NCBI GenBank assembly: GCA_018714725.1
Contig: DVMZ01000053.1
Coordinates: forward strand, 1 to 36,584
Origin: Candidatus Scatosoma pullistercoris
GTDB lineage: Bacteria > Bacillota > Clostridia > Christensenellales > Borkfalkiaceae
Direction of reading: 5' to 3'
Length of the DNA stretch: 36,584 nt
Within the stretch, counting starts at the first letter, position 1. Every line of letters begins with the position of its first letter. The position numbers and the translations under genes are program-made. The notes under the pieces were generated by a model that saw nothing but the letters and a program-made list of their open reading frames with translations, was not told where the DNA came from and searched no databases. This document shows, one piece after another, positions 25,297 to 27,380 of this stretch.

Positions 25297-25713
25297 GTGA
25301 AAAAGCAGATTAAACTCAGGAGTGCGATTCTCGCCTCCGCGGCGGCGCTTTCCGCGCTGTTATTCGATGTTTCTTCGCTGGGAGAGCTGAAAGACGTTTC
25401 CCGGCCATATCTCGGCACTTATGAATGCGAACGGATTTTTCTGGGCGAGGAGGAAAAGACCGATCGTTTCGAATACGTTCGTATCGAGTTGCAGCCGGAC
25501 GGGAAAATGAAACTGCTCTATCAGGAAAAGCAGGGGAAAAAGGGAGAAGCGGAAGCCCGGTATTCCTATGACACGCAAAAGGATCTTTTGACCGTTTATG
25601 TGGATATTGCGGGTTTTGAACAAAAAAAGACTTTTCCGGTGGAGAACGGGGTTCTCGAATTGTCCGTGCGCTATGGCGGCAGGATGCTGATGATGCGGTT
25701 TGTCAGGAAATGA
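25297..25713 (+). CDS. Small exported/anchored protein, uncharacterised
   Basis: GTG start, N-terminal signal-like KKQIKLRSAILASAAALSALLF, then a beta-rich YLGTYECERIFLG...RYGGRMLMMRFVRK domain. Confidence 0.65.
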   Translation: MKKQIKLRSAILASAAALSALLFDVSSLGELKDVSRPYLGTYECERIFLGEEEKTDRFEYVRIELQPDGKMKLLYQEKQGKKGEAEARYSYDTQKDLLTVYVDIAGFEQKKTFPVENGVLELSVRYGGRMLMMRFVRK

Positions 25714-26035
25714 TCTTCGGGTCGGCGGTCCTTTGGAAAGGACCGCCGATAAAAATTTCGGCGGTTGGGCCGGTTGGGGGTAACGCCTGGCGACAACGGG
25801 CGCAAGTCTGACGAACTTGCTTTTATTGGGAGCGCCTGACGGCAATAAAGCGCAAACCCTTGGTTTGCTTTTGGGGTTCGGGTGCGCCTTGCGGCGAAGT
25901 GCCTTCGGCAAGGGTTCGCGGGCTCCGCCCTGCACCCGCAAGGGACAGTGTCCCTTGACCCGATTCGGCGCAAGCCTTCCGGCTTGCTTTCCGGAAAATC
26001 CGTCGGGACGTTCGGGGATTCCGACAGCCTTTCCT
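25714..26035. repeat. Intergenic GC-rich hairpin array (REP/BIME-like)
   Basis: Hairpins at 25723-25748 (12 bp), 25800-25824, 25850-25872, 25939-25956 and 25968-25990; three share flanks GCGCA...TGCTTT with compensatory stem changes. Confidence 0.7.
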
Positions 26036-26088
26036 CCTCGGGATATGAGAATATTGTACAAAAAAATAAACAAACGTTTGATAAATTC

Positions 26089-26117
26089 TTGCTATTTTTT
26101 CCGGAATGTGGTACAAT
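26089..26117 (+). promoter_or_regulatory. Sigma-A-type promoter, very close to the helicase start
   Basis: TTGCTA-N17-TACAAT; ATG at 26127. Confidence 0.65.
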
Positions 26118-26126
26118 AAAATTGTT

Positions 26127-27380
26127 ATGGAACGAGTACTCACTTCCGACCAGGAAAAAGCGAAGAATTTAATAGCCGAATGGTTTCTCAATTCCGATAA
26201 CCGCATGTTCGTCCTGTCGGGATACGCGGGAACAGGCAAGACGTTTCTGATCGATTATATCGTGCGGGAAGTGCTGCACCTGAAAGCGGGGACGGAGGCG
26301 GTGTTCGTGACGCCGACGGGTAAAGCCGCTACGGTGCTCATCCGCAACGGCACGGTGGCGGGAACGGTTCACAGCCTCATCTATATGCGGAATGAGGACG
26401 ATTTTGACGTGGATGAAAACGGGGAGATTGTCGAACGGGAAATCCTCTCGTTTACCAAGCGGGAAAAAATCGATGAGAAAATCCGGCTGATCGTCATAGA
26501 CGAAGCGTCCATGATCGCCGAGGACGTCCTGCGCGATCTGCTGAGCTTTGACGTCAAATGCCTTTTTTCCGGAGACGGAGCCCAGCTCCCGCCCGTGGGC
26601 AGCTCCTGCGGACTGATGGACCGGCCCGATTATCAGCTGACGGAAATCGTGAGACAGGAAGCCGATAATCCCATTATCCGGCTTGCCACCATGGCGCGGG
26701 AAGGAAAAACAATTCCCTACGGCAACTATGGGGATAAAGTCAGCGTCATCGGCAGAAATTATCTCTCCGAATCCCAGCGCCGCCGAATCTTTCTCAAAGC
26801 CGATCAGATTATCTGCGGCCGAAACCGGACGCGCGCGGCGCTCAATGCGGAAATCCGGCGTTACAAGGGAATTTCGCCCGATAAACTGCTGCCCCTGGAA
26901 GGCGAGAAACTCATCTGCACCCTCAACGACTGGGAAAAACCGCTGGACAAAGAGGGCAATTTCCACCTCGTCAACGGAATCATCGGGACGGCTTCGGAAA
27001 TCCGGACAGATTCGGATTTTCTCGCCACTATGTATTTCACGGCGGATTTTGCGGACGAAGGCGTGCGCGTACCCTTCGATACGGGAATTTTCACCGAAGG
27101 GCGCTATGCCTACGGCTACGGCGACCGTGCGGTGACGCTGGTGGACGGCTCCGTCGTCCACGAGGACGATTTTGAGCGGCTTCGGCTGCTGAAAGCCGTT
27201 TCCGAAGAACCGATCTGCCGCTTTGAATTTGCCTATGCTGTTACCTGTCACAAAGCGCAGGGTTCCGAATTCGGATTCGTCGTCGTGTTCGACGAATCCC
27301 GCGTGTTCGGAGAGGACCGGAATCGCTGGCTGTATACCGCAATCACCCGCGCCCGGGAAAAATTGCTCATCATCCGCTGA
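26127..27380 (+). CDS. RecD-like / Dda-like superfamily 1 DNA helicase
   Basis: FVLSGYAGTGKTFLIDYI (Walker A), IRLIVIDEASMIAEDVL, FSGDGAQLPPVG, C-terminal AYAVTCHKAQGSEFGFVVVF...WLYTAITRAREKLLII. Confidence 0.9.
   Translation: MERVLTSDQEKAKNLIAEWFLNSDNRMFVLSGYAGTGKTFLIDYIVREVLHLKAGTEAVFVTPTGKAATVLIRNGTVAGTVHSLIYMRNEDDFDVDENGEIVEREILSFTKREKIDEKIRLIVIDEASMIAEDVLRDLLSFDVKCLFSGDGAQLPPVGSSCGLMDRPDYQLTEIVRQEADNPIIRLATMAREGKTIPYGNYGDKVSVIGRNYLSESQRRRIFLKADQIICGRNRTRAALNAEIRRYKGISPDKLLPLEGEKLICTLNDWEKPLDKEGNFHLVNGIIGTASEIRTDSDFLATMYFTADFADEGVRVPFDTGIFTEGRYAYGYGDRAVTLVDGSVVHEDDFERLRLLKAVSEEPICRFEFAYAVTCHKAQGSEFGFVVVFDESRVFGEDRNRWLYTAITRAREKLLIIR

Follow-up and report, generated by a model that had tools for sequence, protein, structure and literature searches.

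The REP/BIME elements of Proteobacteria are short palindromic units that occupy intergenic DNA, assemble into mosaic clusters, carry complementary changes in their stems and are distributed patchily among strains (PMC2817692, PMC3733652). The BOX elements of Streptococcus are modular composites with a boxA-boxB-boxC organization that are dispersed and measure about 70-640 bp (PMC3049150). We analyzed a 36,584-nucleotide stretch of Candidatus Scatosoma pullistercoris DNA, referred to here as the window, in which an array of covarying hairpins had been noticed and likened either to a REP/BIME-type composite or to a structured non-coding RNA. The source genome (G000; 1.49 Mb in 175 contigs, 73% complete) belongs to a genus of Clostridia that includes Candidatus Scatosoma pullicola. 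We consider it likely that the feature in the window is one copy of a family of small, non-autonomous, mosaic palindromic repeats that act at the DNA level. Copies of this family are dispersed, stacked in tandem, patchy among species and missing from the matching gap in relatives, and their pairing is kept under sequence drift.

The array lies in an intergenic gap of approximately 396 bp (25714-26105) that separates two coding genes, both on the + strand. The upstream gene (25297-25713) encodes 138 amino acids, is kept in relatives and has no Pfam match, while the downstream gene (26106-27380) is a Pfam-checked call for an AAA_30/UvrD_C_2 helicase; calls without such a check are the approximate output of a simple codon model. 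The pairing of these two genes is conserved in relatives. A separate observation concerns the sequence AAACAAACGTTTGAT at 26068-26082, upstream of the helicase gene, for which relatives carry (A/G)AACAAA(C/T)GTT(C/T)G at a comparable distance from the promoter. We take this site to resemble a Firmicutes LexA (SOS) box, and thus the helicase gene may be induced by DNA damage.

The repeat copy spans positions 25800-25990 of the window, and every hairpin named in the original prediction was found where it had been placed. Its modules, all on the + strand, run in the order A1, a shortened B/C, A2-B-C-D-E and A3. The three hairpins of the form gcgcAA...TTGCttt that had been reported at 25800, 25850 and 25968 are the A hairpins. 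In the family alignment, A1 occupies 25800-25820 (stem GCAAGT/ACTTGC) and is followed at 25830-25848 by a fused short B/C module, GCC-TGAC-GGC, identified by comparison with other copies. A2 (25850-25868; stem GCAAACC/GGTTTGC) is followed by a T-run and a GGGGTTCGGG linker (25869-25884), after which come hairpin B (25885-25896; CGCC-TTGC-GGCG, with a C-G to G-C double change in three copies), hairpin C (25900-25910; TGCC-TTC-GGCA), hairpin D (25918-25933; GCGGGC-tcc-GCCC(T)GC) and hairpin E (25939-25957; CAAGGGAC-agt-GTCCCTTG, then ACCCG), the last being the predicted AAGGGACagtGTCCCTT hairpin. A3 (25968-25987; stem GCAAGCC/GGCTTGC) begins the next, truncated unit. The D-E doublet of this copy matches the covariance model at 25914-25962 with a score of 77.5 bits. 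A further hairpin, described as a 12-bp member of the array at 25723, is present as a perfect 13-bp hairpin, tcggcggtccttt-gg-aaaggaccgccga (25722-25749, no strand assigned), but it lies outside the repeat family, being single-copy with its own palindrome as its only match in the genome. Since relatives carry unrelated hairpin-plus-T-run terminators at this position, the 25722-25749 hairpin probably serves the upstream gene as its native terminator.

Across copies, the repeat unit consists of hairpin A (gcGCAAnnn-loop-nnnTTGCtt), a GGG-rich linker, hairpin B (CGCC-n4-GGCG), hairpin C (TTGCC-n4-GGCAA) and a doublet of hairpins D (GCGGGC-tcc-GCCC-T-GC, then ACCCG) and E (CAAGGGAC-nnn-GTCCCTTG, then ACCC), the doublet being summarized as GCGGGCtccGCCCTGC-ACCCG-CAAGGGACnnnGTCCCTTG-ACCC. 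Units come in a short A-B-C form of approximately 70 bp and a long A-to-E form of approximately 125 bp, and in the source genome they are stacked head to tail with 1-4 units per array. The order and orientation of the modules are fixed, and a strand asymmetry is conserved, with a T-run 3' of A and ACCC after both D and E.

A BLAST search of the region against its own genome returned 29 matches, indicating a dispersed repeat rather than a locus-specific structure, and a non-coding RNA specific to this locus was rejected for the same reason. The source genome contains at least 20 D-E cores, detected with a covariance model of this most conserved part, and at least 34 A hairpins; these counts are minima, since many copies run to contig ends (C34, C48, C57, C83, C88, C120 and C175). 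Such arrays break draft assemblies, with about half of the loci in the source genome ending a contig, and they also generate false open reading frames and false non-coding RNA candidates. Arrays are seen at the end of contig C57, 3' of clpX, and at the start of contig C48, before lon; the two contigs are probably adjacent, and the assembler may have divided a single array between them.

Exact copies of the core were found in 'uncultured Clostridia bacterium E10__bin181' and in Candidatus Scatosoma pullicola. The core is present in 33 of the 57 species of the genus, at 1-43 copies each, and several genomes that are at least 94% complete have none. Among 199 genomes of the order, a further 9 contain weaker look-alikes with different flanks, and the D-E model had no match in the other 398 genomes of a phylum sample. 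Viral contigs, plasmids and phages likewise gave no match, and spread by phages or plasmids was rejected on that basis. Two other repeats were encountered in these searches. One, in a genome of another family of the order (G075; loci L087-L092), is a tandem repeat of approximately 250-270 bp with at least 29 matches in its genome, a D-E-like doublet (GGGGGCTCCGCCCCC...GCAAGGGACTGCGTCCCTTGACCC) and otherwise different modules. The other, AAGGCTCCTTTGTGCAAAGGGAGCTGTC...GACTGAGGGATTGT, is a second interspersed repeat interleaved with the mosaic hairpin family in the congener G028 (L047-L069).

We compared the gap between the 138-aa gene and the helicase gene with its counterparts in eight relatives, none of which has the array. 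The gap measures 91-160 bp in these genomes (160 bp in G028, 155 bp in G007, 91 bp in G255 and 105-115 bp in five others) as opposed to 396 bp in the source genome, and contains nothing beyond a terminator and a promoter region. It is empty even in G028 and G007, which carry 43 and 18 copies of the repeat, respectively. Contig C40 bears another array, between divergent genes, and this one is likewise missing from the matching gap of G028. In the few neighbourhoods that allowed comparison, no repeat location was found to be common to the source genome and either G028 or G007. We infer movement of the repeats from presence and absence only; empty sites are seen, but the spacers of the relatives are too diverged for junctions to be placed or for exact boundaries and a target-site duplication to be recognized.

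As a single strand, the region folds better than its dinucleotide shuffles, with z values of -3.7 for the + strand and -5.5 for the - strand and none of 100 shuffles as good. The inner stems of the A hairpins in the source genome include GCC/GGC, GTC/GAC, AAC/GTT and ACC/GGT, and the compensatory changes claimed for them are borne out: among 34 A hairpins collected by sequence anchors alone, 98% of inner stem cells are paired, compared with 81% (maximum 89%) in 1000 shuffles. Twenty-five distinct A hairpins contain 15 double-change cells versus 3.8 when shuffled and 0-4 when slid, although this set was chosen with a pairing requirement and the anchor-only test is the fairer one. Pairing is also maintained in relatives. 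In the D-E doublet across the genus, both sides have changed in 11 of 14 pairs, and there are 87 double-change cells versus 14.1 ± 3.0 when shuffled and 1-20 when slid; this alignment was fitted to the structure and so favours pairing, but the slides and the single-copy readings agree with it. The latter, GTGGGCtctGCCCAC, GAGGGCtccGCCCTC, AAGAAACtgaGTTTCTT and AAGGGACatcGTCCCTT, display the same covariation. Short stems are frequent in GC-rich spacer DNA, yet chance hairpins are hardly conceivable here, given coordinated stem changes at no fewer than 20 places; copy number and covariation already refute such an origin.

Strong covariation, a fixed order of modules, folding that surpasses shuffles and strand-asymmetric linkers and T-runs would all be expected if the array were a structured RNA, either a trans-acting non-coding RNA or a cis-regulatory element, in which pairing at the RNA level is selected. 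An RNA role could also lie behind the conserved strand asymmetry noted above. However, G-U pairs are nearly absent, accounting for approximately 8 of approximately 1120 paired cells in the D-E doublets of the genus and 1 of 100 in the A hairpins of the source genome, and RNA helices, which normally tolerate such pairs, usually carry more of them. The rarity of G-U points, as a lead and not as proof, to pairing in DNA or on both strands. The - strand also folds even better against its own shuffles than the + strand does, each genome has many copies beside unrelated genes in both orientations, including in the gap between ruvA and ruvB, and relatives lack the array in the matching gap. A search of Rfam at gathering and relaxed thresholds returned nothing credible. 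Thus, the structured-RNA half of the original prediction was not upheld, and we regard it as quite unlikely.

The neighbours of the copies in the source genome are housekeeping genes, among them tmk, metG, rsmA, tgt, clpX, lon, ruvA and ruvB. Copies occur in co-directional, convergent and divergent gaps and on either strand relative to the adjacent genes, and none of the D-E cores detected falls within a predicted gene. Of the 18 two-sided contexts in G028, 11 are convergent but only 1 divergent, a preference that could mean that copies act where transcripts end and are not simply tolerated there. This preference, together with the GC stems and T-runs of the A hairpins, would fit a reading in which the hairpins are intrinsic terminators or mRNA 3'-end stabilizers that serve as spare transcript ends. 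Terminator-like sites in the region are not clearly more numerous than in shuffles (5 versus 3.2 ± 1.8 expected), however, and none of hairpins B to E is followed by a T-run. Copies also lie inside operons, namely between ruvA and ruvB in the source genome and, in both orientations, among pyrimidine-operon-like genes at locus L041, and one lies in the divergent promoter gap on C40. Finally, the matching gap of relatives already has a terminator of its own. An array of terminators or stabilizers is therefore an unlikely explanation.

We also considered whether the array consists of true REP/BIME elements mobilized by a REP-associated tyrosine transposase (RAYT). The repeats are palindromic, intergenic, clustered and covarying, and some relatives (L129 and L135) have inverted as well as direct arrangements. 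Nevertheless, the GTAG/CGTC tetranucleotide forms no conserved column at any hairpin foot in our alignments, and the same search for the Y1 transposase (PF01797) that was positive in E. coli found no such gene in the source genome, which at 73% completeness makes this result not final, or in most high-copy relatives (G007, G004, G023, G236, G014 and G022), these seven genomes having 13-37 copies each. Y1 is present in about equal shares of zero-copy and high-copy genomes, and a link to RAYT or IS200 was rejected since neither is associated with copy number. Mobilization by a RAYT is therefore very unlikely. A link to reverse transcriptase was rejected as well: RVT_1 occurs in 8 of 57 genomes, only one of which is high-copy.

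For a non-autonomous DNA-level repeat, we envisage that a copy would enter an intergenic gap through copy-and-paste of a hairpin-rich strand, either by an enzyme acting in trans or by template switching during replication, and that the number of units would then rise or fall through recombination between head-to-tail units. Copies would persist preferentially where nothing is broken. The element may work, or be repaired, as folded single-stranded or cruciform DNA, with a change in one arm being copied to the opposite arm or selected against, so that the stems stay complementary; folding or repair at the DNA level would account for the near absence of G-U pairs. Any effects on the host, such as protection of mRNA 3' ends, binding of gyrase or nucleoid proteins, or weak termination by the A hairpins, would then be of secondary importance. 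A more specific version, which we put forward only tentatively, is that these mosaic repeats are genus-wide and have no tyrosine transposase, their hairpins being held complementary by templated arm-to-arm repair or by an uncharacterized mobilization factor that recognizes hairpins, with stems homogenized species by species within a fixed architecture.

The family is real, well supported and ordinary in kind, with the look of a parasitic or structural repeat, and it is apparently undescribed, as no published description was found in the open literature, subscription journals being outside the scope of that search. It provides uncultured gut Clostridia with a well-defined interspersed repeat family that has measurable stem covariation and no RAYT. 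Such a family allows one to ask how palindromic repeats multiply and retain their symmetry when the enzyme believed to drive REPs is missing.

With MITEs and REPINs, the repeats share their small size, non-autonomy and foldability, as well as inverted pairs of half-elements in the congeners G248 and G004. At the loci concerned (L129 and L135), inverted D-E pairs with A and C hairpins between them form bilaterally symmetric, MITE- or REPIN-like elements of approximately 200-280 bp. Units in the source genome differ in that they follow one another head to tail and no terminal inverted repeats are seen in them, and no insertion sequence sharing terminal inverted repeats was found for these units or for the inverted pairs of G248 and G004. 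A candidate parent insertion sequence between an inverted and a direct copy at L041 was rejected because the intervening open reading frame, which from its translation we take to be a pyrimidine-operon gene, looks like an ordinary host gene; the two copies would thus be separate insertions.

The likeness to REP/BIME elements holds in kind, extending to palindromic intergenic units present in many copies, mosaic clusters, complementary stem changes and patchiness, but not to strict identity. The Scatosoma repeat has five hairpin types in one orientation where REP/BIME elements have one or two that alternate, and all multi-copy clusters in the source genome run head to tail. A conserved tag, an associated Y1 transposase and alternating order were all looked for and not found, which places the repeat outside the GTAG/CGTC REP class. 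BOX elements are likewise dispersed and highly paired, with sub-sequences in fixed order and a variable number of internal modules, as in the A-B-C and A-B-C-D-E units found here. The Scatosoma repeat differs in that it occurs in Clostridia and that whole units are also stacked in tandem. Judged by modular architecture alone, its nearest known counterpart in logic would be BOX.
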